Shown piece after piece: positions 25,570 to 39,083 of a DNA stretch of 64,000 bases. A model generated the notes under the pieces. That model was given only the letters and a program-made list of their open reading frames with translations, was not told where the DNA came from and did not search any database. The translations under genes were made by a program, and so were the position numbers. How positions within the stretch are numbered: the stretch's first letter is position 1; every line of letters begins with the position of its first letter. The DNA is from Desulfobacterium sp. (lineage in GTDB: Bacteria; Desulfobacterota; Desulfobacteria; Desulfobacterales; Desulfobacteraceae), in assembly GCA_016342325.1 (NCBI GenBank), contig JAEINR010000006.1:62001-126000 (forward strand), read 5' to 3'.

Positions 25570-26574
25570 ATGGCCAGAATCAGCATGTGGACCGGCGAGG
25601 GATGCCTTTTTTCTAGCATTTCGACCCTGATGGACGCCTTTTCCATTGCCAACCTATGGAATCGGACCGTTGACGACACAGCGCAAGACCCCCTGTTCGA
25701 GGCACAGGTCCTCACCTTGGACGGCAAATCCGTCCAAGCCTACGGCGGTATCGGGATAACGCCCCACGGCGCCATCAGCGATGTTACCCAGAGCGATTTC
25801 ATCGTTATTTCGTCCCATATGCCCCATGTGGGAACCCTGCCCGACCGTCTCGACCAGTTGCTCGCCTGGATAGAGCGGCTTCGAAGCCACGGGACCACCG
25901 TGGGCACGGTGTGCACAGGGTCCTTTATCCTGGCCGAAATGGGGCTGTTGGACGGGAAACTTGCCACCACCAACTGGCATTTTGCCAACCTGTTCAGGAA
26001 ACGGTATCCAAAGGTCAACCTGAAGCCGGGCTTGATGATGACCGAGGACCAGGGCATCATCTGCACGGGCGCCGCAACCGCAGTCCACAATCTGGCACTC
26101 CACCTCATCGAGACCTTTGGTTCAAGGGAACTTGCCTCGGTGTGCGCAAAGGCGCTCCTGGTGGACCCCAACCGCATGAGCCAGGCCCCTTACATGATCT
26201 CCGAGTCCCGGAAAAACCATGGCGATGTCCAGGTGCTGAAAGCCCAGGAGCTGATGGCGGCAGATCATGGAAAGAATATCGCCATTGATGCCATTGCCGA
26301 GGCGGTGGGGATCAGCCCCCGTCACTTCAAGCGAAGATTCAAGAAGGCCACCGGGGAGATGCCCCTGAAGTACCTCCAGTGTATCAGGATCGACGCGGCA
26401 AAAAGGCTGCTTGAAACCTCCCGGGAGACCATCGACGAGATCACCTGGGCCGTGGGCTACCGGGACACAAGCTCGTTCTGCAGGCTGTTCAAGCAGCACA
26501 CGGATTTATCTCCCAGGGCTTACAGAAATAAATTCTTTCAATCCGAACCCGGTTCCCCTGCTGGGATTCTTTAA
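25570..26574 (+). CDS. GlxA-family AraC regulator with DJ-1/PfpI-like domain
   Basis: 334 residues from the ATG at 25570, just after ggaggaag; the longer frame from 25495 has no site. A class-I glutamine-amidotransferase/DJ-1-like domain (about 1-190) has the nucleophile elbow GTVCTGSFILAE, and a C-terminal AraC/XylS double HTH (about 235-330: IDAIAEAVGISPRHFKRRFKKATG and IDEITWAVGYRDTSSFCRLFKQHT). Family members sense small metabolites and activate adjacent operons. It lies divergent to the ferredoxin-type gene, and its TAA stop shares the tetranucleotide TTAA with the convergent YhhQ-like gene. Confidence 0.9.
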   Translation: MARISMWTGEGCLFSSISTLMDAFSIANLWNRTVDDTAQDPLFEAQVLTLDGKSVQAYGGIGITPHGAISDVTQSDFIVISSHMPHVGTLPDRLDQLLAWIERLRSHGTTVGTVCTGSFILAEMGLLDGKLATTNWHFANLFRKRYPKVNLKPGLMMTEDQGIICTGAATAVHNLALHLIETFGSRELASVCAKALLVDPNRMSQAPYMISESRKNHGDVQVLKAQELMAADHGKNIAIDAIAEAVGISPRHFKRRFKKATGEMPLKYLQCIRIDAAKRLLETSRETIDEITWAVGYRDTSSFCRLFKQHTDLSPRAYRNKFFQSEPGSPAGIL

Positions 26575-27260
26575 TCCTCTTTGATCTTGTGCTGGGCGAA
26601 CCAGTGTCGTGCAAGATAGATAAACGGGGTATCTGCCGCTCCCACTACCCATTTCAGAAGGTAGGTTGTCCAGAAGATCTCAAACAGTGCCGTTGCCGGA
26701 AACACGCCCCAGAACGCCAGAAGCGTGAACACACTGGAATCGATCAGCTGACTGACCATGGTGCTGGCATTGTTCCGCAGCCAAAGCAACTTTGCTGAAG
26801 GAAAGCGTTTCTTCCAGAAGTCATAGGCCCACACATCGTGGGACTGGGATATGAAATAGGCAATCAGGCTTGCTCCGGCCACCCGGGGCATGAACGAAAA
26901 GATATTTTTCAGGCTCTCCTGGGCGAAATCATCCGGTGCTGGGGCAAAGTAGAGGGCCATGTTCATGAGAACCGTCATGGCCACCAAAGAGAAAAGACCG
27001 ATGTGAACCGCTTTTTTTGCCGCGTTTTTTCCATAAATTTCCGACAGTATGTCGGTGACAAGGAAGGAGGAGGCATAGACGATGTTACCAAGGGTTGCCG
27101 TTACCCCGACAAGCTCCACCAGTTTTACCACCTGGATGTTGGCCACAATGGCGGCAATGGGCACCCAGGCATAAAGGCCTGTCTTTCCAAAGAGTCTGTA
27201 AATGATGAGAATGAAACCAAAATTGACGGCAAGCATCGCAAACCATAGCAGTTCGTTCAT
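26571..27260 (-). CDS. YhhQ-like queuosine-precursor transporter (VUT family)
   Basis: 229 residues from the ATG at 27260, directly after ggaggttctccc; an upstream in-frame start at 27347 lacks a site. Six or seven TM helices with the VUT/YhhQ hallmarks: NIVYASSFLVTDILSEIYGKNAAKKAV, FISQSHDVWAYDFWKKRF and NNASTMVSQLIDSSVFTLLAFWG. The family takes up preQ0/preQ1 or queuine for tRNA modification. No preQ1 riboswitch was recognised in the leader; the region upstream holds dispersed repeat copy B instead. Confidence 0.93.
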   Translation of the reverse strand: MNELLWFAMLAVNFGFILIIYRLFGKTGLYAWVPIAAIVANIQVVKLVELVGVTATLGNIVYASSFLVTDILSEIYGKNAAKKAVHIGLFSLVAMTVLMNMALYFAPAPDDFAQESLKNIFSFMPRVAGASLIAYFISQSHDVWAYDFWKKRFPSAKLLWLRNNASTMVSQLIDSSVFTLLAFWGVFPATALFEIFWTTYLLKWVVGAADTPFIYLARHWFAQHKIKED

Positions 27261-27637
27261 GGGAGAACCTCCAGTTTTGTTAAGGCGGGTGCTGAGACCG
27301 CCAGATTTAAAATGGGGGAGGGTATCAGCTTTATCGGGCAATATCAACCGGAAAGCCGCTTTCCCCTGTTTTAGCTTCTTCGCTTTGATTTTCGCGTTAT
27401 TTTGGCAAGGGAATCAGGAACCCTTTGGTTCTGACTTGTCCAGGTTAGGTTGTGTCCTGGCCCGGATTGCATCCTTAACTTGAAATGGCATAAGTGCCGT
27501 GCTATTTTAATTGAACGGTATTTTTTAATAGAATTGAATTTTAAGTTTCCTCCTAGGTTTCAACCTGTACGGTTTTTTTCTTACAATATACCCAACCTGC
27601 TGCATGTATCGTCCGCCCGCCTTGGGAAGGGGCAAGA
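27261..27637. other. Divergent intergenic region holding repeat copy B
   Basis: Separates the YhhQ-like gene (minus) from the double-Cache kinase (plus). Apart from repeat copy B at 27369-27449 it contains AT-rich sequence upstream of the kinase with no confident promoter. A preQ1-type riboswitch was looked for and not found. Confidence 0.4.
27369..27449 (+). repeat. Dispersed intergenic repeat, copy B
   Basis: Begins TTTTAGCTTCTTCGCTTTGA, contains TTTTGGCAAGGGAATCAGG and ends GACTTGTCCAGGTTAGG. Same block order as the other copies; the arm TGATT pairs with AATCA. It sits in a divergent promoter region, unlike the copies at gene 3' ends. Confidence 0.8.
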
Positions 27638-30475
27638 ATGATGTTTAATTCATTGAAATCACGCATAATACTCTCTATTACAGGGATTGTTGTATTCTCC
27701 CTTGCAATAACAATCTTTTTTTTCAAGCAACGGGCAGAATACGAATTGTCAGATGCCATTGAAGTCAATGCGCTTAACGCCGTGGAAGCGACAAAAAATT
27801 ATGTGGAATTGCAACATAAGAGTATCCTTTACCATAAATCGGTCATGCTTTCCCGTAGGAAGATAGAACTGAAAAACAACGCGACCATCGCATTCTCATT
27901 GATCAACAGCGCGTACCAGGAGTACAAAAATGGACAAATCAGTGAAGGGAGCGCAAAGCAACACGCAATGGATGATCTCAGGCGGGTGCGGTATGATGAC
28001 GGCATCGGATATTTCTGGATAAATGATACGGGTCGTCCCTATCCCAGGATGATCATGCATCCGACCATTCCGGAATTGGAAGGAAAAATCCTTGATGACC
28101 CGGGGTTCAACTGTGCTTTTGGCAGAAAAGAAAATTTATTCAAAGCATTTGTCGATGTCTGCCTTGCAAAAGAAGAGGGATATGTTGACTATCTTTGGCC
28201 CAAACCCATTCCCGGAGGACTTACGGAACAGCAACCCAAAAAATCTTATGTGAAACTCTTCAAGCCCTGGAATTGGATCATTGGGACCGGTGTCTATATC
28301 GATGACATTGAAAAAGATGTTCAGGATCGACTCGATGCCGTGATTGAAGATTTGAATAAAATAATTCTCAAACAGAGAATTGGTGAACACGGCTATTTCT
28401 TTATTTTCAATGAAGAGAATCATGTGCTTGTTCATCCCAATCGTGCGGGAATGGATGGGAATGAGTTTGTAAACCCCATAACAGGCAATGCCATCCTAAA
28501 TGAAATGAAAGAGGTCGTGCTCGGTTCCGACCCTTATCTTGAGTACCTGTGGGATAAACCCGGCTTTAAAGGGGAATATCGATTCTATAAAAAGGCCTAT
28601 GTGACCTACTACGAACCCCTGGGCTGGTACATCGGCAGCACTGTTTACAAAGAAGAATTTGAACAAAAAATATCAACATTTATTAATGCGATCCTTCTTT
28701 TTTCCGGTTCTGTTCTTGTGATAACCATGATTATCTCACTGCTTGTCGCAAGAAGCATCACAAAATCGCTAAATATGCTTGTTCTTTCCATACGTAAAAC
28801 AGGCAGAAATGGTATCCCCGTCGATACCATTCCCGAAACAGGAACCGTTGAGATGAAAGTGCTTAGTGCCACCATGAATAATATGATCGATTCTATCAGT
28901 AAATCCCGGAAGGCGTTAAAAAACCAGCGGGATTTTTCCCTGGGTATTATCAAAGGTGCGCCTTATCTTATCTGCGGGTTGACCCCTGATGGCATCATCA
29001 CCTTTATTAATCCTGCCGGGGAAGGGGCAACAGGGTATTGCAAAGAGGAACTCATTGGAAAAAACTGGTGGCAAGGATTCTGCTATGTTGAGGAACATGA
29101 ACAGGCTGAAAAGCTGTTCAAAGCGTTTGCCGGAAGTGACGTTGTTGATTATGAGATGCGGTTGAACTGCAAGAACGGTGAACAGAAAACCATTGTCTGG
29201 AATACCCTTATCAAGCGAGACGAGAATAGCGATATCCTGGAAATTATAGGGTTTGGCCATGACATCACGGCGCGCAAGCACGGGGAAGAGGAGCTTTATC
29301 TTTTGCGCAATTACTTGTCCAACATCATCGACTCCATGCCGTCTGTGCTGGTTGGGGTGGGCGCGGATGGCAAAGTGACCCAGTGGAACAAGACAGCGGT
29401 GGAAACCACGGGGATCAAAGCCTCGGCCGCCCAGGGCAAAAATCTGTATGATGTGTTTCCCCAAATGGCTTCGGAGATGGAAAAAATAGCCGAAAGTATC
29501 CGGGTCCGGGAAACAAAACAGGAACGGAAAAAGCCCCGCTTGACGGAAAAGGGCATCTGCTACGAGGATGTGACCATCTATCCCCTGGTCGCCGACGGTG
29601 TGGAAGGCGCAGTGATCCGCATCGATGATGTCACGGACAAGGTGAGGATGGAAGAGATGATGGTCCAGTCTGAAAAGATGCTTTCGGTGGGTGGTTTGGC
29701 CGCAGGTATGGCCCATGAGATAAACAATCCCCTGGCCGGTATGATGCAGACCGCCGATGTCATGGCAAGGCGCTTGGGAACGAGGGCGGATATGCCGGCC
29801 AACCTGAAAGCCGCCGAGGCTGCCGGCACCACAATGGAAGTCATCCAAAGCTTCATGGAGGCCCGGGGCATATTGCGCATGGTCACGACCATCATTGAAT
29901 CGGGCCGCAGGCTGGCGGCCATTGTGGAGAACATGCTCAGTTTTGCCAGAAAGAGCGATACCCAGGTTTACCCCCATGCCCTTGATGAACTCATGGACAA
30001 GACCCTGAAGCTTGCGGCCACCGACTATGACCTTACAAAACAATACGACTTCAAGCGGATCGAGATCCGGCGGGAGTATGAAGAAAATCTTCCCCCTGTG
30101 CCCTGCGAGGGGGCCAAGATCCAGCAAGTTCTGCTCAACATCCTCAGAAACGGTGCCCAGGCCATGGAGGCGGCGGAAATAAGGACCCCGCTGTTTATTC
30201 TCCGTATCCGGTTTGAAAAAGAGAGAAAAATGGTCTGCATGGAGGTAGAGGATAATGGCCCCGGCATGATGGAGGAGACCCGGAAACGGGTGTTTGAGCC
30301 GTTCTATACCACCAAACCCGTTGGGGTTGGCACCGGTCTTGGCCTGAGTGTCTCCTATTTTATCATCACGGAAAATCACTGTGGAGAGATGACTGTGGAA
30401 TCCCGGCCGGGATCCGGCGCAAAATTCATCATCCGCCTTCCTCTGAAAATCAGGAAACCAGGTCCTGTGTGTTGA
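27638..30475 (+). CDS. Double-Cache, double-PAS sensor histidine kinase (orphan)
   Basis: 945 residues. TM1 (about 10-29), a periplasmic dCache_2-type sensor of two similar units (about 50-225 and 240-345; GYFWINDTGRPYPRMIMHPTIPELEGK and GYFFIFNEENHVLVHPNRAGMDGNEF), TM2 (about 353-373), HAMP, PAS1 (about 430-545), PAS2 (about 560-670), a HisKA H-box AAGMAHEINNPLAGMMQTADV (near 690) and HATPase (about 810-940, EDNGPGMMEETRKRVFEPFYTTKPVGVGTGLGLSVS). No response regulator adjoins it. It likely senses a small carboxylate or similar ligand. Because a terminator follows, linkage to the nitrogenase-like genes 200 bases downstream is uncertain. Confidence 0.92.
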   Translation: MMFNSLKSRIILSITGIVVFSLAITIFFFKQRAEYELSDAIEVNALNAVEATKNYVELQHKSILYHKSVMLSRRKIELKNNATIAFSLINSAYQEYKNGQISEGSAKQHAMDDLRRVRYDDGIGYFWINDTGRPYPRMIMHPTIPELEGKILDDPGFNCAFGRKENLFKAFVDVCLAKEEGYVDYLWPKPIPGGLTEQQPKKSYVKLFKPWNWIIGTGVYIDDIEKDVQDRLDAVIEDLNKIILKQRIGEHGYFFIFNEENHVLVHPNRAGMDGNEFVNPITGNAILNEMKEVVLGSDPYLEYLWDKPGFKGEYRFYKKAYVTYYEPLGWYIGSTVYKEEFEQKISTFINAILLFSGSVLVITMIISLLVARSITKSLNMLVLSIRKTGRNGIPVDTIPETGTVEMKVLSATMNNMIDSISKSRKALKNQRDFSLGIIKGAPYLICGLTPDGIITFINPAGEGATGYCKEELIGKNWWQGFCYVEEHEQAEKLFKAFAGSDVVDYEMRLNCKNGEQKTIVWNTLIKRDENSDILEIIGFGHDITARKHGEEELYLLRNYLSNIIDSMPSVLVGVGADGKVTQWNKTAVETTGIKASAAQGKNLYDVFPQMASEMEKIAESIRVRETKQERKKPRLTEKGICYEDVTIYPLVADGVEGAVIRIDDVTDKVRMEEMMVQSEKMLSVGGLAAGMAHEINNPLAGMMQTADVMARRLGTRADMPANLKAAEAAGTTMEVIQSFMEARGILRMVTTIIESGRRLAAIVENMLSFARKSDTQVYPHALDELMDKTLKLAATDYDLTKQYDFKRIEIRREYEENLPPVPCEGAKIQQVLLNILRNGAQAMEAAEIRTPLFILRIRFEKERKMVCMEVEDNGPGMMEETRKRVFEPFYTTKPVGVGTGLGLSVSYFIITENHCGEMTVESRPGSGAKFIIRLPLKIRKPGPVC

Positions 30476-30610: not shown

Positions 30611-30634
30611 CGGCAGGATTCTCCTGCTTTTTTT
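30611..30634 (+). terminator. Candidate Rho-independent terminator after the double-Cache kinase
   Basis: Six-base-pair stem gcagga/tcctgc with a three-base loop, followed by seven T. Short but well formed; it separates the kinase gene from the nitrogenase-like genes that start 38 bases later. Confidence 0.65.
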
Positions 30635-30672
30635 ATGATAATGGGGTCTGGAAGCGGGTATACTAAGGATCT

Positions 30673-32856
30673 ATGAAAATCGCAATCTACGGCAAGGGCG
30701 GCATCGGCAAGTCAACCATTTCGGCAAATCTCGCAGCCGCCCTCTCCCTGTCAGGGAAACGGGTGCTTCAGATCGGCTGCGATCCCAAGCACGATTCAAC
30801 ACGGCTCTTACTTGGTGGCAGGAAAATCACCACCGCCCTTGACTACATGAAAGAGGTGCCGGTTGCCCGCCAGCGCCTGGACGGGGTGCTTCACCAGGGG
30901 TTCAACAACATTGTGTGCGCCGAAGCCGGCGGTCCCGAGCCCGGGGTCGGGTGTGCGGGCAGGGGAATCCTGAGCACCTTTGCCCTGTTTGAGCGCCTGG
31001 GCCTTGACATGGAACGGTTTGACGTGATCATCTACGATGTCCTGGGGGATGTGGTGTGCGGTGGGTTTGCTGTTCCCTTGCGAAAGGGGTTTGCCGACCG
31101 GGTCTATGTGGTCACCTCCGAGGAGTTCATGTCCATCTATGCCGCCAACAATATCCTCAAGGGCGTCAAGAATTACGATGGAGAAGAGCACCGCCTGGCT
31201 GGGCTGGTTCTCAACAGCAGGGGAGACTCCGAAGACCGGACGCCGGTTGAGCGATTTGCTGAAAAGGTCGCCCTGCCCGTGGTCAGGACCGTGCCCAGGA
31301 GCGACCGCTTTCGCCAGGCCGAAATCATGGAAAAAACTGTTGTGGAGGCGTTCCCGGATTCCCCCGAGGCCCGGGTGTTCCACGGATTTGCCCGGAGCGT
31401 CATGGAGAACACCACCTTCTATCCTGCCTTTTCCCTTGACGAGGACTTTCTTGAACAGACGATCTTCATGGGCAGGGAGCCGGACCCGGCAATTGAAATA
31501 CCGGCCCGGGAGGCGCCTGAAACGCCTGTTGAGACCGTGGCCGATCTTGCAACTGGTGCAACGCCCGTGTTTTTGTCAAAGAGCATGATGACCCGGGAAC
31601 CCCTCCACGGTTGTGCCTTTGCCGGCGCCCTTGCCACGACCACCCAGGTGGTGGATGCCATCACCGTTGCCCACGGTCCCAGGAGCTGCACCCACATTGC
31701 TTTCCAGGCCATCTTTTCGGCCGGGCTCAGGCTCCATACCCAGAAGCAGATGCTGGTGCCAAACCAGCTGGCACCGGCCGTGATCTCCTCGGACATGGAT
31801 GAGAACACGGTGATTTATGGTGGCAACGACACCCTTGCCCGGACCCTTGAAACCGCGGTGGAAAAAAAGCCCGGGGCCCTGTTCCTTTTGACCACCTGTC
31901 CTGCAGGGGTGATCGGGGATGATCCCGATGCTGCGGTCCGGGAGATCCGGGCGCGCTACCCGGATCTGCCTGTCATTCCCATCACCACGGATGGAAATCT
32001 CAGGGGGGACTACATGCAGGGGGTGCTCAACGCCTCCATGGAAGGGGCCGCAGCACTCATGGATCCAACGGTCCAAGCCCGGCCGGACCGGGTGAACGTC
32101 ATTGCTGAGAAAAACATCGCCTATAATGCGGAAGACAATTTCAATACCATCACCGACATCCTCGGGCAGATGGATATCCGGATCAACTGCCGGTTCGTGA
32201 GAAACACTCGGGTCAAGGACCTCAAGGCGTTCCTCAGGGGCGGGTTGAACCTGCCCGCCTATACCGACTACTTCGGTCGTATCATGGCCGATTTCCTGAA
32301 GGAGCGCTTTGACAGCCCCACGGCGAGCCTCCCGTTTCCCGTGGGATTCACCGAGAGCAAGCTCTGGATACGGGAGATAGCAGCCTTTTTCAACAAAGAG
32401 GAAAAAGGCGAAGCCATCATCGAAATCTTTCAGGCCCGGTATGAAACCCTGATCGCAACCCACCGAAACGCCCTCAAGGACAAGCGCCTCATGATCATCA
32501 CCTATGTTCACAATGTGGACTGGATTGTTGAGGCCGCCTTTGACCTTGGCATGGTCGTCTCCAAGGTGTGCATCTTGAACTACTCCCAGGACAACAGGTT
32601 CACCACCCGCTATCCGGGTCGGTTCCAGGTGGAGACAGATTACCCGCCCCACCAACGGGACACGGACCTCAAACGGTTGAGGCCGGATATCCTGGTGGGT
32701 AACTATACGCCCAAGACCCTTCCCTTTCCCGTCCATGTGGACACCATTCCCATGTGCCCGGATGTGGGGTTCTACGGCGGGATCGCCTTTGCACGGCGCT
32801 GGGCAAGCCTGGTCAAATCACCGGTAAACGAAGGATGGAAAAACGATGGAATTTGA
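30673..32856 (+). CDS. Nitrogenase-like fusion: NifH/BchL-type Fe protein joined to a NifD-type subunit
   Basis: 727 residues. Residues 1-265 form a complete Fe protein: P-loop GKGGIGKST, cluster ligands Cys94 (GVGCAGRG) and Cys129 (DVVCGG). After a Pro/Glu-rich linker (about 268-298), residues 300-715 form a component-1 alpha-like subunit with three P-cluster-type cysteines: Cys314 (HGCAFAGA), Cys339 (HGPRSC) and Cys409 ([11 protein letters not shown]). Near residues 545-560, where NifD has the FeMo-cofactor Cys, the sequence is [11 protein letters not shown] without Cys; the region of the cofactor His reads [11 protein letters not shown] (Cys695). This points to a nitrogenase-superfamily reductase without FeMo-co, related to the group IV/DPOR/CfbCD kind. 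Its natural substrate is unknown. The next gene overlaps by 11 bases. Confidence 0.88.
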
Positions 32857-34138
32857 TTGCCAACCCATACCCCCGGACAGTTTTACCGGTGCCATCATGG
32901 CGGTGGAGGGAATCACGGATGCTGCCGTACTCCTCAACGGCCCCACCGGATGTAAGTTCTATCACGGATCGATCTCGGAGAGTCTCCTGTCCAGGGCAGC
33001 GTATCTTGATCCCCTTTATTACTCCGAAGAGTTTTACTTTGGCCAGCCACGGGTGCCGGCCACCTACCTGGACGATTATGACTATGTGTTCGGCGCCACC
33101 CAAAAGCTTGAAAAAATTCTTCCCGTGGTCGCAGAAAAAGGTCATTCTCTCATCGTCATCGTCAACTCTCCGGGGGCCGCCCTGATCGGCGACGACCTGG
33201 AACGGTTCATCAAGAACGCCTGTTTGCCGGTACCCTGCCTTGCCATCGAAAACACGGGGTTTTCAGATGCCTTTGCCACGGGGTTCCAGGACGCTGTCAT
33301 CCAAGTCATCAAGCAGGTCGATCCAACCCCGGGTACATCCCCAACCCCCCGGGTCAACTTGATGGGCCTCTCCATTTTTCACCACCACTGGCAGGGAAAC
33401 CTCAACGAACTGACCCTCCTCCTCAACGCCTGTGGTATCGAGGTAAACACCGTGCTTTGTGCCGGAACCACCATGGCCCGGATGGAGAACCTTGCAACGG
33501 CCGGGTGCAATCTTGTGATTCACCAGGAGTATGCGGATAAACTGGCCCTTTTTTTAAAGGAGCGGTTCCATCTTCCCACCCTGGTGCCCTCGGTGGGGGC
33601 TCCCATGGGGTTTGAGGCCACCGAAGCCTGGATTACAGAAGTTTGTGAAAACTTTGATCTCGATCCTGCACCTGGAATGGCCATCATCAAAAAAGCACGG
33701 AATCGCAGCCATGAAGTCCTCAACCGGTTCAACTCCCTGACCGGCCTGCCAAAGGGGGCGACCTTTGCCCTGGTAGCGGACGCCTCTATTGCGCTTCCCC
33801 TGGTGACCTGGCTTTATACTTATCTTGGCATGGTGCCCGTTGCAGTAAAATTTGTCGAAACCGTGGATTGTTTTGCCGATGCGTTAACCGCGTTTCTCCA
33901 CAGGATCGACTGCGCAGATGCCCTGAATGCCGATATTGTTGCTGCCACGCCCGATATTGTCCTGGGAAGCCAGGCCGATATATCCCGCCAGCGCCTGGCG
34001 GGATACCCCTTTGCCGGTATCGATATCTCCCTTCCCGCCGCAAGTCATATCCATGTGGTTGAAAAGAGCTTCATGGGGGCCCAGGGGACCCTTTACCTTA
34101 TCGAAAAGATCATCAACGGACTGTTCCGGAAAATGTGA
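32846..34138 (+). CDS. NifK/NifD-like component-1 partner of the fusion protein
   Basis: 430 residues, oxidoreductase/nitrogenase component 1 fold. Two N-terminal cluster-type cysteines are present (Cys5 in FDCQPI; Cys36 in [11 protein letters not shown]), but the third position, TTC in most relatives, is [12 protein letters not shown] (Ser108, no Cys). With the three Cys of the fusion, the dimer interface could bind a [4Fe-4S]-type or unusual P-cluster with mixed ligands, as DPOR does with an Asp. Other family features include [19 protein letters not shown] and the C-terminal [10 protein letters not shown]. It overlaps the fusion gene by 11 bases and has a gaaggatggaaaaacg site, so equal expression as a complex is expected. 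No nifB, nifE or nifN is nearby. Confidence 0.85.
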
Positions 34139-34507
34139 TCAACGAAAATCCTACCGGATACATTGACAGAAAATAATAAGTATAATATCCTAAGACATTA
34201 TAACTAAACGATAAAAGAAGATTTCGTTCCGGAAATCATCCTCAACAAGAACGATTCCTGCCTGGCTTTTGCATCTAATCTAAGAAAGACGTTTCCAAAA
34301 CCTGCTTCGTTAATCTGCCTTTTACCGATAATTAAATGGTCTCGAATATTCCTTGGTGTGTGCCTTTTATCTGGGGCAGGGGGCCTGTTTGTTACGACTA
34401 TAGTGCTGGTCAAATGACGTGATACCAACCCACCATTATTAATAAGTAGCGGTATCAATTGATCTGACCAGAGCGATAAAAGGGTGAATGAAGTAAAGGA
34501 GGATATC
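34139..34507. other. AT-rich spacer between the nitrogenase-like pair and the ABC operon
   Basis: 370 bases. TTGACA at 34163 and TATAAT at 34181 look tempting but are only 12 bases apart; TATCCT at 34186 gives 17. Minus-strand sequence at 34204-34400 could encode an unrecognised ~60-residue peptide ending LLRMISGTKSSFIV, possibly a gene remnant. No terminator is evident after the NifK-like gene, so readthrough into the ABC operon is possible. Confidence 0.35.
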
Positions 34508-35716
34508 ATGAAAAAACTTATTTTATTGTTTGTCTGCTGTCTCATGGCATGGGGTGTAACGGTACCCGCCAACGCCAAAGGGATCATCAAAATTGGAGGG
34601 GTCGGTCCCCTTTCCGCTCCCGGATCATTTGAGAGCGGAAAAGAGATGAAAATGGCCATGGAGCAGGCCATCGAGGAGATCAATGCTGCAGGTGGCGTCT
34701 TGGGAAAAGAGGTCGCACTGGTCTTTGAAGATACCCAGGGGCTGCCCGAAAAAGGCACGGCCGCCATGGAACGGCTGGTGCTGAAACACAAAGCCGTTGC
34801 CGTGGTGGGGGAGTTTCACAGTTCTGTTGCCAAAGCTGAGATAGAAGTGGCAAACAGGCTTAAGGTCCCCTTGATCATTGCTGAAGCCTGGGCTGATGTG
34901 ATCACCGCCAAACAATACAAATATGTATTCAGGATCGCCCCGGCCAACTCTCTATTTTACCGTAAAATTGCCAATTGGATTCACGCGGCCGGTTTTAAAA
35001 ACGTTGTGATGATCACGGAAAATTCCGACTATGGCATCGGTGTTGAAAGGGTGATCCGGGAGCAGTTGAAAAACGCCGGTATCAAAATGACTTCCATTAC
35101 TGCCGAAAGAACGATCCAGGATTTTACGCCCCAGCTCCTGCGATTCAAGCTGGCCACGCCGCGGCCGGACCTGCTCTTTGGGATTTTCACCGGCGCCGGA
35201 GAATTGCTCATGGTCAAGCAGGCCCATGAAATCGGGTTTGCCCCGACAAAGGAAACAGCCCTGTTTGCCGTGGGCACCGATGCCCTGCATAAGGAATTCT
35301 GGGAAATCACCGGTCAAAGCGGTCAATACGTCCTGACAAAGACAGGGTATTATCCCGGAATTAAATTTACCGAAAAGACCGATCCCTTTATCAAGCGCTT
35401 TAAAGAGAAATATAACCGGGAACCCACATTTGCCGCCATGGAAGCCTACGAGGCGGTGTATCTGGTGGCCCATGCCCTTAAACGAGCCGGATCCACCGAC
35501 CCTGATGCCCTGGTTGCAGCCTTGGAAAAAACCCGATTCACCGGTCTTCGCGGTGTGATCCGCTTTTCCCTGGACAGGGAACCGGCGTATATGTATCACC
35601 AGTGGCCGGGGACGCCAGCCTTTGTCATTCAGTATACCCAGGTCAATCAACCGTATACGGATGCACTGCTTCTCTGGCCCAAAGCCCACAGCAATGGCCA
35701 GTTGATGAAACCGTAA
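34508..35716 (+). CDS. LivK-like periplasmic binding protein of a branched-chain-amino-acid-type ABC importer
   Basis: 402 residues from the ATG at 34508 (strong site aaaggaggatatc). Signal peptide about 1-23 (VTVPANA-KG). Type I periplasmic-binding fold: IKIGGVGPLSAPGSFESGKEMKMAMEQAIEEINAAGGVLGKEVALVFEDTQG, AVVGEFHSSVA and AEAWADVITAKQYKYVFRI. Such proteins bind amino acids, amides, urea or aromatic acids; the ligand cannot be told. It heads the livKHMGF-type operon directly downstream of the nitrogenase-like genes. Its TAA stop falls in a degenerate copy of the dispersed repeat. Confidence 0.93.
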   Translation: MKKLILLFVCCLMAWGVTVPANAKGIIKIGGVGPLSAPGSFESGKEMKMAMEQAIEEINAAGGVLGKEVALVFEDTQGLPEKGTAAMERLVLKHKAVAVVGEFHSSVAKAEIEVANRLKVPLIIAEAWADVITAKQYKYVFRIAPANSLFYRKIANWIHAAGFKNVVMITENSDYGIGVERVIREQLKNAGIKMTSITAERTIQDFTPQLLRFKLATPRPDLLFGIFTGAGELLMVKQAHEIGFAPTKETALFAVGTDALHKEFWEITGQSGQYVLTKTGYYPGIKFTEKTDPFIKRFKEKYNREPTFAAMEAYEAVYLVAHALKRAGSTDPDALVAALEKTRFTGLRGVIRFSLDREPAYMYHQWPGTPAFVIQYTQVNQPYTDALLLWPKAHSNGQLMKP

Positions 35717-35792
35717 CCCGGACAAGCCGGCACCCAAAAAAGCTGATTTTTTGCAACCATAACGCGAAAATAAGCGTTAAGAAGCGAACAGG
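35712..35792 (-). repeat. Dispersed intergenic repeat, degenerate copy F
   Basis: Reverse orientation, running cgTAACCCGGACAAGCCGG ... aaaaaagctgattt ... AACGCGAAAATAAG ... TTAAGAAGCGAA. The small end hairpin is CCGG-CTTGT-CCGG on the minus strand, where other copies have CTGG-CTTGT-CCAG, a compensated pair change. It begins at the stop codon of the binding-protein gene and separates it from the permease gene. Confidence 0.55.
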
Positions 35793-35818
35793 AAACAGCC
35801 CGGAGCAGGGAGGGGGTA

Positions 35819-36721
35819 ATGACTGAATATCTTCTACTTCAAGCATTGAACGGCCTTATCATCGGTCTTATTTATGCGTTAATGGCCCTGGGCCTGACCC
35901 TGATTTTTTCAGTACTCAAGATCGTGAACTTTGCCCACGGCGAACTCTACATGCTGGGGGCGTATTTTTCCTATTATCTGGCCAAACTGTTTGGGTTCCC
36001 CCCTGTCCTGGCGGTGTTGTCGTCAATGATCATTGTGTTCTTTATAGGGGTTGTCATTGAGGTGTTATTCCTTCGTCCGGTATATACGGGGGCGGTTGAG
36101 CGAAAAGACGAATACGCCATACTGATCACCTTTGGGTTGTCCATTTTTTTGCAAAACCTTGCCCTGTTTGTATTTGGTCCCTGGACCCGGCGGTCCCCCT
36201 CCTTCATGTCCGGAACAACATCCGTCTATTCCCTCAGCATCAGTAATGACCGTCTTTTTGTATCTGCCCTGGCCGTTGTTTTTATGATTGCAACCCTGGT
36301 CATCATCGGCAGGACCTTTATGGGAAAGGGGTTGCGGGCCGTGAGCCAGGACAGGGAGGCTGCCGCCATTGCGGGTATAAATCCCTTTAAGATGAACCTC
36401 CTGGCCTTTGGTGCCGGTTCGGCGCTTGCGGCTGCGGGGGGGGCCCTTATCGGGCCGATTTTCCTGATATTTCCGACCATGGGCGCAATGCCGGTGATAA
36501 AATCCTTTGTGATCATTGTGCTGGGGGGGATGGGGTCCATCAAAGGGTGTATTATTGCAAGTCTTATCCTGGGGGAGGCGGAGAGCCTTGGGTCTGTTTT
36601 GTTTCCGGATTTGACCCGGGGGCTGGCCTATAAAAATGCCATCGGGCTTTTGTTTCTGGTGGTTGTGCTCCTCGTGAAACCCACCGGTCTGTTTGGTGAA
36701 AAACATGTGAGGATGAAGTGA
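35819..36721 (+). CDS. LivH-like ABC permease
   Basis: 300 residues, about eight TM helices. LivH hallmarks are present: ALNGLIIGLIYALMALGLTLIFSVLKIVNFAHGELYMLGAY at the N-terminus, MGKGLRAVSQDREAAAIAGINPFKMNLLAFGAGSALAAAGG (the ATPase-coupling EAA-like loop), and VLGGMGSIKGCIIASLILGEAE. It forms half of the membrane channel with the LivM-like protein. The gene follows a gggaggggg site and overlaps none of its neighbours; 7 bases separate it from the livM-like start. Confidence 0.94.
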   Translation: MTEYLLLQALNGLIIGLIYALMALGLTLIFSVLKIVNFAHGELYMLGAYFSYYLAKLFGFPPVLAVLSSMIIVFFIGVVIEVLFLRPVYTGAVERKDEYAILITFGLSIFLQNLALFVFGPWTRRSPSFMSGTTSVYSLSISNDRLFVSALAVVFMIATLVIIGRTFMGKGLRAVSQDREAAAIAGINPFKMNLLAFGAGSALAAAGGALIGPIFLIFPTMGAMPVIKSFVIIVLGGMGSIKGCIIASLILGEAESLGSVLFPDLTRGLAYKNAIGLLFLVVVLLVKPTGLFGEKHVRMK

Positions 36722-36728
36722 ATCCATT

Positions 36729-37670
36729 TTGAAGAATTTAAAGCGTCTGACACCCATGGTTTTATTTCTTGCCGCAATGGCTCTGCCGGTTGCACTAGAC
36801 GGGTACGGGCTGCACATTCTTATCATTGCGTATTATTATGCGTTGCTGGCTTCCAGCTGGTGCCTGCTGGCCGGCTATGCCGGACAGTTTTCATTTGCCC
36901 ATGCCGCCCTTGCTGCTGTGGGGGCCTACACCTCGGCATTACTGGTATTGAATACGGACATTTCTCCGGTTTTCAGCATCCCCATCGGCAGTGTTGCTGC
37001 TGCCGGGGTCGGATTCTGTATCGGCTTTCTCTGTCTTCGGTTGCAGGGACCTTATCTTGCCCTTTTTACGATTGCCTTTTCTGAAATTTTCAGAATTGTG
37101 CTCAATGCCGAATACCGGTATACCGGCGGTAATTTCGGTTTGAACGTGCCGCCGCTGTTCAGCCAGGAATCCAGGATCTTATATTATTACACCATCCTTG
37201 GGATATTGATCCTGTCCCTTGCGATCATGCATAAAATTGTGAAATCCCGGCTGGGTCTGTTTTTCCGGGCGGTGCGGGAGGATGAGGAAGCGGCTGCAAC
37301 CCTTGGTGTGAATGTCATCAAATATAAGATTTTGGCTTTTGTCATTACAAGTTTTTTTGCCGGTCTTGCCGGCGGGTTTTACGCACATTATGTCCGCATT
37401 CTCACCCCGAATATCATACAGCTGCCCCAGATGGGGCTTATCATCGCAATGGTGGTGATCGGCGGGATCGAGAGTCTGGCAGGGGCGGTTGCAGGGGCGT
37501 TGATCCTGCAGCTTGCGGCAGAATATCTTCGGGATTATGAGGAGTTGCGCTGGGTGTTTTTTGGATTGCTGCTTGTGATTACGTTACGGTTTTCTCAAAA
37601 CGGGCTGATCTATCCGATTTATAAGCGATTGACTAAAAAAAGTGAAAAAGACCATGCTGAAAGTGACTAA
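36729..37670 (+). CDS. LivM-like ABC permease
   Basis: 313 residues from TTG at 36729, an unusual start seven bases after the livH-like stop; the ATG at 36756 would shorten a basic N-terminus (MKNLKRLTPMVLF). Features: YALLASSWCLLAGYAGQFSFAHAALAAVGAYTSALLV, LGLFFRAVREDEEAAATLGVNVIKYKILAFVITSFFAGLAGGFYAHYV (ATPase contact) and MVVIGGIESLAGAVAGALIL. About nine TM helices. It overlaps the ATPase gene start, consistent with an operon. Confidence 0.94.
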   Translation: MKNLKRLTPMVLFLAAMALPVALDGYGLHILIIAYYYALLASSWCLLAGYAGQFSFAHAALAAVGAYTSALLVLNTDISPVFSIPIGSVAAAGVGFCIGFLCLRLQGPYLALFTIAFSEIFRIVLNAEYRYTGGNFGLNVPPLFSQESRILYYYTILGILILSLAIMHKIVKSRLGLFFRAVREDEEAAATLGVNVIKYKILAFVITSFFAGLAGGFYAHYVRILTPNIIQLPQMGLIIAMVVIGGIESLAGAVAGALILQLAAEYLRDYEELRWVFFGLLLVITLRFSQNGLIYPIYKRLTKKSEKDHAESD

Positions 37671-38364
37671 GCTGACAAAGCGTTTTGGCGGTTTGACTGC
37701 ATTGGAAAATGTCTCCTTTAAAGTGGCGAAGAATGAAATTCTAGGGGTCATTGGTCCCAATGGCTCAGGCAAGACAACCCTGATCAATGTCATTAACGGC
37801 ATCCATAAACCGGACAACGGCGATATCTTTTTTCGAGATAAATCCATTGGCCGGCTTTCGTCCTATCAAATTGCCAAAAAAGGAATCGGAAGAACCTTCC
37901 AGGTCACCCGAATCTTTAGAAGAATGAGCGTGATGGAGAATATGATGGTGCCCGCACTGTCGATCTCTAGGTCTGGGAACCAGGAAGCGTTGCTTCATAA
38001 GTCCCTTGGGATTCTCACTCTTTTAAAAATCGTTCATCTGAAGGACGAATACGGGAGAAGTCTTTCCGGGGGACAGCATAAATTGCTGGAACTGGGACGG
38101 GTGTTGATGCTGGATCCCGATCTCATCCTGCTGGATGAGCCCTTTGCAGGGGTGCATCCTGAACTGAAAGCGGACCTCCATGATCATATCAGAAAACTCC
38201 ATGGCCAGGGCAAGACCTTTATTCTGATCAGCCATGATATGCATTCCATATTCAGTCTCAGCCAGCGGCTCATGGTGCTAAGTTCCGGAAAGAAAATTGC
38301 CCATGGCACACCGGAAGAGATCAAGCAGAATGAAGAAGTCATTGAAGCCTATTTGGGAAATTAA
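37654..38364 (+). CDS. LivG-like ABC ATPase
   Basis: 236 residues from the ATG at 37654 (MLKVTKLTKRFGGLTAL, the typical LivG start; a GTG at 37642 would add four residues), overlapping livM by 17 bases. Walker A GPNGSGKTT, Q-loop GRTFQVTRIF, signature LSGGQHKLLELGRVLM, Walker B LILLDEPFAGV and switch His in LISHDMH. The signature glutamine-histidine variation (GGQHK rather than GGQQR) is common in this subfamily. It energises transport with the LivF-like partner encoded two bases downstream. Confidence 0.94.
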   Translation: MLKVTKLTKRFGGLTALENVSFKVAKNEILGVIGPNGSGKTTLINVINGIHKPDNGDIFFRDKSIGRLSSYQIAKKGIGRTFQVTRIFRRMSVMENMMVPALSISRSGNQEALLHKSLGILTLLKIVHLKDEYGRSLSGGQHKLLELGRVLMLDPDLILLDEPFAGVHPELKADLHDHIRKLHGQGKTFILISHDMHSIFSLSQRLMVLSSGKKIAHGTPEEIKQNEEVIEAYLGN

Positions 38365-38366
38365 GT

Positions 38367-39083
38367 ATGTCACTTGAAGTAAAGGATGTTTTTGCCGGGT
38401 ATTATGCAGATATAAATATTTTACAGGGGGTTTCCGTCTCTGCTGAAAAGGGCAGGATCACCATTGTCATCGGCGCCAATGGGGTCGGGAAATCAACACT
38501 GTTTAAAGTCATCTATGGGTTTTTAAAGCCCCATTCAGGAAAAATAATCTACAATGACGAGGAGATCACCGGCACAAATCCATACACCATATCAAAGAAA
38601 GGAATTTCCTATATTCCCCAGCGCAGAAATATCTTTCCCTATCTGTCCGTGGAGGAAAACTGGGAAATGGGGGCCTGGATTTTCAGAAAAGATAAGAAAC
38701 GGATGAAACAGCGCATTAAAGCCAATTATGAGCGGTTTCCAACCCTTGGGTCCAAAAGAAAAACGGATGCAGGGTCCTTGAGCGGCGGGGAGCAGAGAAT
38801 GGTGGAGATCGGAAGGGCCCTGATGGTGGATCCCGACCTTATTCTGGTGGATGAACCCACGGCCGGTCTTGCGCCGGTGGTGGCGAAAGAGATCTATTCT
38901 AAATTGAAACAGCTGAACAGGGTCGAGAACAAAACCATTTTACTGGTGGATCAAAATATCCGCCAGGCCATGAAAATTGCCGATTATATTTATATCCTTG
39001 AATTGGGCAAAAATAAAACCCAGGGGTCCAAAGCGGCGTTTGAAACCGACTTAAAAGCCATGATAAAAGATTGGCTGTTCTGA
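38367..39083 (+). CDS. LivF-like ABC ATPase
   Basis: 238 residues. Walker A GANGVGKST, Q-loop YIPQRRNIFPYLSVEENWEMG, signature LSGGEQRMVEIGRALM, Walker B LILVDEPTAGLAP and a switch region LLVDQNIRQAM with Gln where most ABC ATPases have His, as is usual in LivF proteins. Starts two bases after livG. It is the last gene of the transporter operon; downstream a three-unit 10-base tandem repeat and dispersed repeat copy C separate it from the convergent YkgJ gene. Confidence 0.94.
   Translation: MSLEVKDVFAGYYADINILQGVSVSAEKGRITIVIGANGVGKSTLFKVIYGFLKPHSGKIIYNDEEITGTNPYTISKKGISYIPQRRNIFPYLSVEENWEMGAWIFRKDKKRMKQRIKANYERFPTLGSKRKTDAGSLSGGEQRMVEIGRALMVDPDLILVDEPTAGLAPVVAKEIYSKLKQLNRVENKTILLVDQNIRQAMKIADYIYILELGKNKTQGSKAAFETDLKAMIKDWLF

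Follow-up and report, generated by a model that had tools for sequence, protein, structure and literature searches.

A nitrogenase-like enzyme family with a fused Fe protein and a genetic link to corrinoid salvage

What might a nitrogenase-like enzyme do whose Fe protein is part of the same chain as its catalytic subunit? This question is raised by two overlapping genes of a Desulfobacterium sp. (GenBank assembly GCA_016342325.1, contig JAEINR010000006.1, positions 62,001 to 126,000; this stretch of 64,000 nucleotides is called the window, and its positions are counted from its first letter). A preliminary description made from the letters alone had reported a complete Fe protein joined by a linker to an alpha-like subunit of component 1, with a beta-like partner overlapping it by 11 bases. 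The fused gene is referred to here as HD, its partner as K and the pair as HDK. The pair belongs to a family with clades of its own and a distinctive cysteine pattern, and in many relatives it lies among corrinoid genes or near cobalamin riboswitches. The substrate of the family is probably a corrinoid.

The fusion and its family

HD is an uninterrupted open reading frame (ORF) at 30673–32856 on the forward strand, encoding 727 amino acids with zero internal stops. K is the ORF at 32846–34138 on the same strand, encoding 430 amino acids, and it shares the 11 bases 32846–32856 with the 3′ end of HD, as first described. Pfam divides HD into Fer4_NifH (residues 1–261, E 2.4e-87) and Oxidored_nitro (residues 314–714, E 8.5e-69), and K matches Oxidored_nitro (E 4.4e-53). 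The Fe-protein domain (30673–31470; residues 1 to about 266) carries the P-loop GKGGIGKS, the switch I motif CDPKxDS, the CAGRG motif around Cys94 and a further motif around Cys129, all of them invariant in the 34 aligned fusions including that of the window, which confirms a complete Fe protein; the P-loop, the switches and the [4Fe-4S] ligands presumably have the roles known for NifH. A linker (31471–31575; residues about 267–301) joins this domain in a single frame of 727 codons to the alpha-like domain (31576–32856; residues about 302–727).

Matches to a D-half alignment define 34 loci of the family (L050–L083; one genome per species scanned). The Fe-protein (H) domain stands in the same open frame in 33 of them (724–860 amino acids before trimming), and the 34th, L081, starts at a contig edge. 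A K-like frame lies 3′ of HD in all 33 and in L081; in L053, L059, L074 and L077 the contig stops before the frame is complete. The proposed search of other genomes thus recovers the same fusion, with its neighbours, from several phyla: among the hosts are Desulfobacterota, Chloroflexota, Bacillota, Spirochaetota, Bacteroidota, Planctomycetota and Actinomycetota, in many cases known from metagenome-assembled genomes (MAGs), and the fusions are 42–91% identical to that of the window. Of the relatives from named genomes, L050, a Desulfobacterium MAG, comes nearest, the D parts being 92% identical. The dN/dS ratios between the window and L050 (91% identical), 0.165 (HD) and 0.176 (K), indicate that the HD chain, and K likewise, is under purifying selection. 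An assembly artefact or chance fusion is ruled out by these ratios and by the 33 of 34 related loci in one frame.

The family is rare yet widespread. Full-length fusions occur in 5 of 291 genomes of the window’s order, its own counted, and in four broader, partly overlapping samples, each built around a fusion-bearing genome, matches were obtained in 5/391, 2/297, 1/345 and 5/348 genomes. One further fragment in the window’s order (L049:1–1791, genome G243) looks damaged, its HD being cut at the contig start and its K split over two frames. A single-protein query found no relative in viral contigs, and among the best 40 of 246 plasmid records the annotated matches were nifD, vnfD and nifE at about 26% identity or less.

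The fusion itself is not new in print. The same architecture was mentioned in Archaea, Firmicutes and Deltaproteobacteria, in one sentence with data not shown and, in the accessible text, with no accession, function or corrinoid link (Dos Santos et al., 2012; PMC3464626). It is very likely the family described here; the present sample is without the archaeal members reported then.

Across the family, the linker between the positions equivalent to 261 and 302 of the window’s HD measures 30–111 residues (median 42), with Ala, Pro, Lys and Gly in abundance. In a model of the window’s HD (mean predicted local distance difference test, pLDDT, 82.8; predicted template modelling score 0.65) pLDDT falls below 50 at residues 267–297. 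A chain this long and modelled with such low confidence should allow the Fe protein to detach and rebind, so that it would be tethered and kept local rather than locked, and could still dissociate in each cycle. The earlier expectation that a covalent chain changes electron delivery is therefore borne out in part: the supply would probably change, but dissociation need not be lost. Unless a separate Fe protein is also used, an (HD)2K2 assembly would contain two Fe-protein protomers, that is, one Fe-protein dimer per tetramer, or half of the capacity of nitrogenase. The family would offer a natural single chain of Fe protein and catalytic subunit for probing the dissociation rule of nitrogenase.

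The host assembly (6.67 Mb, 205 contigs) also holds a separate canonical nif cluster on contig C185, where a single strong NifH-type match is accompanied by four Oxidored_nitro genes. Near HDK itself no nifB/E/N, bch/chl or cfb gene appeared among the 20 window proteins to which the Pfam scan was confined (10 of these also scanned with NCBIfam), in keeping with the preliminary description. Surveys based on NifH may count HD genes as nitrogen fixers.

Superfamily placement and cysteine ligands

In a tree of 68 rows of D- and K-type subunits (quick search, no bootstrap), the 18 D rows and the 16 K rows of the family each form one clade on a long stem, with a Shimodaira–Hasegawa-like approximate likelihood ratio test (SH-aLRT) support of 100. 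Both clades stand apart from NifD/E, NifK/N, BchN, BchB, BchZ, MarD/MarK and other Group-IV-like pairs. MarD groups with F152b, F152c and C149D, and MarK with F152a, F152d and C149K; the family lies elsewhere. The rows of MarD and MarK are partial, CfbD, IsrHDK and NfaHDK are absent from the tree, and very long branches make the places of T153 and BchY unsure (BchY_293 was chosen by length, with no hidden Markov model label). Two further sets of genes were noted alongside. Four consecutive component-1-like genes of Candidatus Formimonas warabiya (L152:1912–7818), with no NCBIfam match at E 1e-60, group with MarD and MarK, and Clostridium tetanomorphum carries, in the same genome as its fused HDK, a second and unfused nitrogenase-like set (L153:2246–5509) of a 249-residue Fe protein and two short component-1-like subunits.

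No listed NCBIfam match reaches its cut-off, either for HD (25 of 32 matches listed) or for K (16 listed), so that the family falls outside those characterised groups that could be placed, being also apart from the Nif, Mar and Bch rows sampled. Bits against cut-off are 315.1/394.35 for nifH, 88.1/653.55 for nifD and 25.2/427.3 for nifK, and the BchN/B models give at most 51.7 bits on HD and 98.7 on K, far below cut-off. Among the matches listed, the top model for the Fe-protein half is CfbC (322.9 bits, cut-off 402), and the D half reaches 31.2 bits with CfbD (cut-off 268.4). CfbCD resembles HDK in this score and would do so in its tetrapyrrole substrate, but both Cfb cut-offs are missed and HDK includes a K subunit, whereas Cfb is described as having no NifK homologue in the accessible part of the source (PMC11423573).

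Structural comparison places the Fe-protein domain with 7qqa_B (VIA-align Z 34.2, root-mean-square deviation (rmsd) 2.1, 264 residues aligned), and the 50 top Foldseek matches listed for the whole fusion are Fe proteins only. For the D half, VIA-align ranks MarD (Z 28.0, rmsd 4.6, 361 aligned) before a DPOR B subunit (Z 27.3, rmsd 5.0, 390 aligned), two scores less than 1 Z apart and therefore tied. The best Foldseek matches of K are DPOR chains (TM 0.76), and its sequence-profile scores are led by MarK (112.9 bits), followed by a DPOR B subunit (85.9 bits). The partner had been called both beta-like and NifK-like; the former holds on Pfam, Foldseek and Cys36 (see below), while K is closer to the DPOR B subunit and MarK than to NifK.

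Cysteines were compared in an alignment with NifD/E/K/N from the same genome and from relatives, BchN/B/Z, partial MarD/K rows and other nitrogenase-like pairs. Four cysteines of D (Cys314, Cys339, Cys409 and Cys506) are invariant in 34/34 sequences, and Cys695 is Cys in 26/34. The first three fall at the positions of alpha C62, C88 and C154, the first Cys of BchN being three columns off. In K the sole invariant cysteine is Cys36 (30/30), which aligns with beta C95; the same column has Cys in BchZ and Asp in BchB, which we take to be the fourth ligand beside three Cys. With this pattern, D and K could together ligate one [4Fe-4S] cluster at their interface in a 3+1 arrangement. The ligand set is present in 34/34 D and 30/30 K sequences and matches the site of the DPOR/COR plan, unlike that of nitrogenase; a cluster would be expected to bind there.

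Other ligands are absent. The beta-153 column holds Pro in 16/16 family rows (Cys in NifK, NifN, MarK and BchB; Ala in BchZ). Thus the P-cluster Cys trio of K is broken at beta-153, and no further Cys is conserved at 30% or more within the first 70 residues, the beta-70 column not having been located by motif. The alpha-275 column holds Tyr, His, Met or Phe and no Cys in 7/7 rows, and alpha-442 is a gap in 18/18. As judged from the alignment, several ligands needed for the P-cluster and for a large cofactor are missing.

Consequently, the closest analogues in plan appear to be dark-operative protochlorophyllide reductase (DPOR; BchLNB) and chlorophyllide a reductase (COR; BchXYZ). Like HDK, both consist of an Fe protein and two component-1 subunits, and they are without a large cofactor and act on a tetrapyrrole, as is proposed for HDK. 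They differ in that their Fe protein is separate, and the HDK family forms its own clade and adjoins corrinoid salvage genes rather than bch genes.

The Group IV enzymes MarHDK (methylthio-alkane reductase) and IsrHDK (isethionate reductase), as the closest or near-closest PDB relatives of K and of the D half, suggest another reading, in which HDK would be an enzyme of the methylthio-alkane reductase type with a large Fe-S-C cofactor and a C–S substrate. Apart from the best or near-best PDB sequence scores of D half and K to MarD and MarK, and the Z of 28.0 given above, it can draw on MarHDK-like genes in or near gene clusters for corrinoid proteins and methyltransferases, ascribed to methionine salvage (PMC10418091, as far as the source is accessible). 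Mar holds a P-cluster and an [Fe8S9C] cluster (PMC12552129, accessible part), several ligands of which are missing from the HDK family. The partial MarD/MarK rows keep Cys at alpha-88, alpha-154, alpha-275 and beta-153, the positions that they cover, and the family has no Cys at the last two of these. With the clades also separate, this reading is very improbable.

Corrinoid genes and cobalamin riboswitches beside the fusion

Corrinoids are modified tetrapyrroles, and an Fe protein with ATP is a known route for the delivery of low-potential electrons. Among the 34 loci, 20 contain corrinoid genes or a cobalamin riboswitch. A riboswitch (RF00174 or RF01689 at gathering score) is present in 14 (L051, L054, L055, L056, L059, L060, L061, L064, L066, L069, L076, L078, L081 and L082), to which genes alone add L052, L062, L067, L071, L073 and L077. 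The weakest of the 20 is L067, with FecCD/Peripla_BP_2 genes only, since genes of this kind also serve siderophores and haem. Clustering of the neighbours of all 34 loci yielded CobU/CobT/CobS-like and BtuC/BtuD-like genes. Pfam identified CobU, DBI_PRT (CobT), CobS, Peripla_BP_2, FecCD and Cob_adeno_trans in L071, CobS and PF01902 in L062, DUF4430 and the S component of an energy-coupling factor (ECF) transporter in L082, CbiQ in L066 and Cob_adeno_trans in L052. The carriers of a linked copy include named strains, for example Desulfocicer vacuolatum DSM 3385 and Labilibaculum filiforme.

Gene orders, read from coordinates and strands, show how close this association can be. The riboswitch lies directly before HD in L066 (8631–8820, HD from 9089) and in Chloroflexaceae L056 (8601–8751, HD from 8891; riboswitch, HD, K), and it heads the same-strand run that holds HD in L078, L082, L069 and L173, although that of L082 is weak (34.6 bits against a cut-off of 31.5). 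In spirochaetes L071 and L073 the order is adenosyltransferase, BtuF-type protein, FecCD, ATPase, HD, K, CobU, TIM barrel, CobT, CobS; L069 is laid out alike with the riboswitch at its head, as is L077 as far as its contig reaches. L173, of the same class, reads riboswitch, TonB receptor, BtuF, FecCD, HD, K, CobU, CobT, CobS, with no adenosyltransferase match. The remaining layouts are CobU, CobT, CobS, PF01902, HD, K (Planctomycetota L062); riboswitch, PF02572 adenosyltransferase, riboswitch, HD, K, riboswitch and then SLH, DUF4430 and CbiQ genes (Formimonas L066); riboswitch, binding protein, FecCD, ATPase, followed by riboswitch, binding protein, HD, K and by riboswitch, TonB receptor (Labilibaculum L078); riboswitch, CbiQ, ATP-binding cassette (ABC) protein, SLH, DUF4430, HD, K (L082); and riboswitch, TonB receptor, HD, K (Desulfocicer L051). 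In L054, L055, L059, L060, L061, L064, L076 and L081 the riboswitch is elsewhere in the locus and apparently does not head the run of HD.

Two kinds of neighbour in these loci are recorded for their own sake. The TIM barrel between CobU and CobT in the spirochaetes is xylose-isomerase-like (PF01261; L071:7562–8257, L073:7593–8285) and possibly replaces a missing salvage step. SLH and DUF4430 proteins near cobalamin riboswitches (L066:14035–17514 and L082:3908–9106, also L060, L061 and L076) are perhaps cobalamin capture systems of Bacillota; in L066 and L082 genes for CbiQ-type transporters lie beside them.

The excess of RF00174 is large. In about 61.7 Mb of 14 family genomes there are 126 matches (three under the cut-off), and 13 of the 34 loci carry one against 1.06 expected at this mean density and 1.79 at 3.4 per Mb, the density being that of genomes chosen after the riboswitch scan had been seen. 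A first estimate on those 14 genomes, whose choice was likewise not blind, gave 8/14 loci against 0.58 expected. The formal P values of 1e-11 and 6e-9 are too small, as riboswitches cluster and related loci are not independent. Controls were 20 regions of 10–20 kb from the same order, each surrounding a NifH-type gene that is not fused. In these no phmmer marker was matched but one TonB receptor, and a cobalamin riboswitch was present in 0/7 regions scanned, a test free of bias from the choice of markers.

The corrinoid link is spread over the family tree and is not the accident of one lineage, since the linked label changes 9 times and at least 7 of these changes are forced by supported branches. 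Shuffled labels gave 10.4 changes, and a value as low in 125/500 shuffles; the short loci L053 and L074 were uncounted, L081 is outside the tree and L068 was scored as unlinked.

Several observations weigh against a corrinoid function. In 13 of the 34 loci no link was seen (L050, L053, L057, L058, L063, L065, L070, L072, L074, L075, L079, L080 and L083), L053 and L074 being both under 5 kb, and L068 has only a weak DUF4430 match. Window and L050 are both without a nearby corrinoid gene or riboswitch as judged by Rfam and phmmer. The Rfam scan was done after CobU-type neighbours had been noticed in the same loci, and the phmmer markers were drawn from the family’s own neighbours, so that their source loci match by construction and the control comparison favours the family. 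In a later sample of seven contigs, of which L170 and L174 belong to the genomes of L065 and L064, one of the five new loci, unused in forming the idea, is linked (L173); L171, L172, L175 and L176 show nothing, the last two on contigs of 10.6 and 11.2 kb. Adenosyltransferases are common: PF01923 is found in 26/34 genomes, PF02572 in 26/34 and either in 33/34 (the window’s genome and 33 others), but they are also present in 9 and 7 of 14 control genomes, so that genome-wide presence says little. Finally, cobalamin riboswitches control B12-independent isozymes too.

This last point suggests that HDK might be a B12-independent enzyme, repressed by the riboswitch and replacing or bypassing a B12-dependent one, whose substrate is not a corrinoid. 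There is precedent in a B12 riboswitch that controls metE, the B12-independent methionine synthase (PMC11260477, accessible part), and in L055 and L056 HDK is followed by a gene that looks MetE/UROD-like by eye, the L056 copy having no Pfam match at 1e-5. However, the HDK genes of spirochaetes, Planctomycetota, Bacteroidota and Formimonas lie in or beside genes of corrinoid uptake, adenosylation and nucleotide-loop assembly, surroundings in which such an isozyme is not expected, and this alternative is accordingly improbable.

The best hint to the step at which a corrinoid enzyme would act comes from adenosyltransferase genes, which adjoin HD in three lineages and belong to two Pfam families. 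PF01923 is divergent from HD in L052 (on the same contig as L045) and in L046, a weaker PF01923 match belongs to the spirochaete operon, and PF02572 (CobA-type) stands directly upstream of HD in L066. HD and K would then form a nitrogenase-like oxidoreductase, probably (HD)2K2, which works in the manner of DPOR and COR and acts on a corrinoid. The tethered Fe-protein domains would pair around one [4Fe-4S] cluster held by Cys94 and Cys129 and, as they bind ATP and hydrolyse it, hand low-potential electrons on to the second [4Fe-4S] cluster at Cys314, Cys339 and Cys409 of D and Cys36 of K, from which they would reach a corrinoid in the D/K cavity. The flexible linker would raise the local concentration of Fe protein and still allow dissociation. 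The likeliest reaction is the one-electron reduction of an imported corrinoid from Co(II) to Co(I) for cob(I)alamin adenosyltransferase, and an ATP-driven reductase of this kind is proposed tentatively, at somewhat less than even confidence. A shade more tentatively still, the family may represent a new class of ATP-hydrolysing corrinoid reductases with covalently tethered Fe protein, which would join DPOR, COR and CfbCD as tetrapyrrole reductases and, in diverse anaerobes, reduce salvaged B12-type cofactors to Co(I) ahead of adenosylation.

A different reaction on the corrinoid is less likely, yet it is the foremost competitor to cobalt reduction: ring reduction or repair, reductive removal of the upper ligand, or a step tied to PF01902 or radical S-adenosylmethionine (SAM) proteins. 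DPOR, COR and CfbCD reduce the tetrapyrrole macrocycle, not the metal (PMC7242693, accessible part). A PP-loop ATPase of the PF01902 (Diphthami_syn_2) type, which perhaps serves an amidation step on the corrinoid, lies directly upstream of HD in four loci (L060:4305–5021, L061:8417–9073, L062:8337–9092 and L076:5400–6065; hosts Marinisporobacter and a Planctomycetota MAG; identified with Pfam in L062 only and with phmmer in the others) and, in L059, on the opposite strand. The gene directly upstream of HD in L059 (8265–9068) is of the radical SAM type, recalling the radical SAM gene beside isrHDK, in this one MAG only. The PF01902 type amounts to 5/34 loci and the radical SAM query matched its own locus only, while the adenosyltransferase neighbours from two Pfam families favour reduction of the metal.

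Reductases for the Co(II) to Co(I) step proposed for HDK are known in some systems, namely PduS, an NADH-dependent flavoprotein with two [4Fe-4S] centres (PMC2982820), and the flavin-dependent CobR (PMC7242693), and for CobA-type enzymes the electron supply is ascribed to free flavin (PMC7242693). Unlike HDK, neither PduS nor CobR is given a nitrogenase fold or a use of ATP in the accessible descriptions, and HDK would be a nitrogenase-type engine for corrinoid adenosylation. Among the best literature matches listed, none reports that an enzyme of the nitrogenase type takes part in the uptake or salvage of corrinoids or is governed by a cobalamin riboswitch, and the same holds for the accessible parts of PMC4285132, PMC8941943, PMC9600662, PMC3543383, PMC3306737, PMC7242693 and PMC11206085, one of which reports nifHDK homologues beside transporter genes in Desulfitobacterium (PMC3306737). 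If the proposal is true, corrinoids would be a new substrate class for the nitrogenase superfamily and several of its members would be tied into a theme of tetrapyrrole reduction.

The copy in the window and its surroundings

In the window, HDK is flanked by a dCache/PAS histidine kinase (27638–30475) and a branched-chain/urea-type ABC transporter (34484–39083), and similar ORFs occupy the same places in L050. At gathering score the window yields no Rfam match. The possibility that HD is preceded by a cryptic cobalamin riboswitch was also considered and rejected, as only two chance-level matches appeared at E up to 5 and neither is a riboswitch; the genome has 11 RF00174 riboswitches, all of them outside the window. 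The closest linked relative is L051, with 70% identity of the fusion, where HDK stands behind the TonB receptor and riboswitch described above.

These surroundings leave room for a reading in which the window copy was recruited to a different substrate, perhaps one that the transporter imports or the dCache kinase senses. The flanking genes and the missing corrinoid neighbourhood speak for it, and this transporter follows HDK in no locus beyond the window and L050 (part of L064–L070 being checked for next ORFs only). Because the invariant residues are the same as in linked relatives and the fusion is 70% identical to that of L051, such a recruitment has a low probability. A corrinoid function is carried over to the window from these relatives, its own neighbours holding no corrinoid gene or riboswitch, and the window copy would thus do what they do.

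A terminator-like stem with a T run lies between the kinase gene and HD (30612–30628, forward strand), and a promoter-like match directly 5′ of the HD start (30635–30664, forward strand); both are consensus matches only. Terminator-like matches are not in excess in the region (3 against 4.8 in shuffles), and promoter-like matches number 5 against 2.3 (sd 1.4). Further upstream, between an AraC-type regulator and the kinase, a gene on the reverse strand (26571–27347) encodes a PF02592 protein (Vut_1, putative vitamin uptake transporter), members of which we take to be usually transporters of queuosine precursors.

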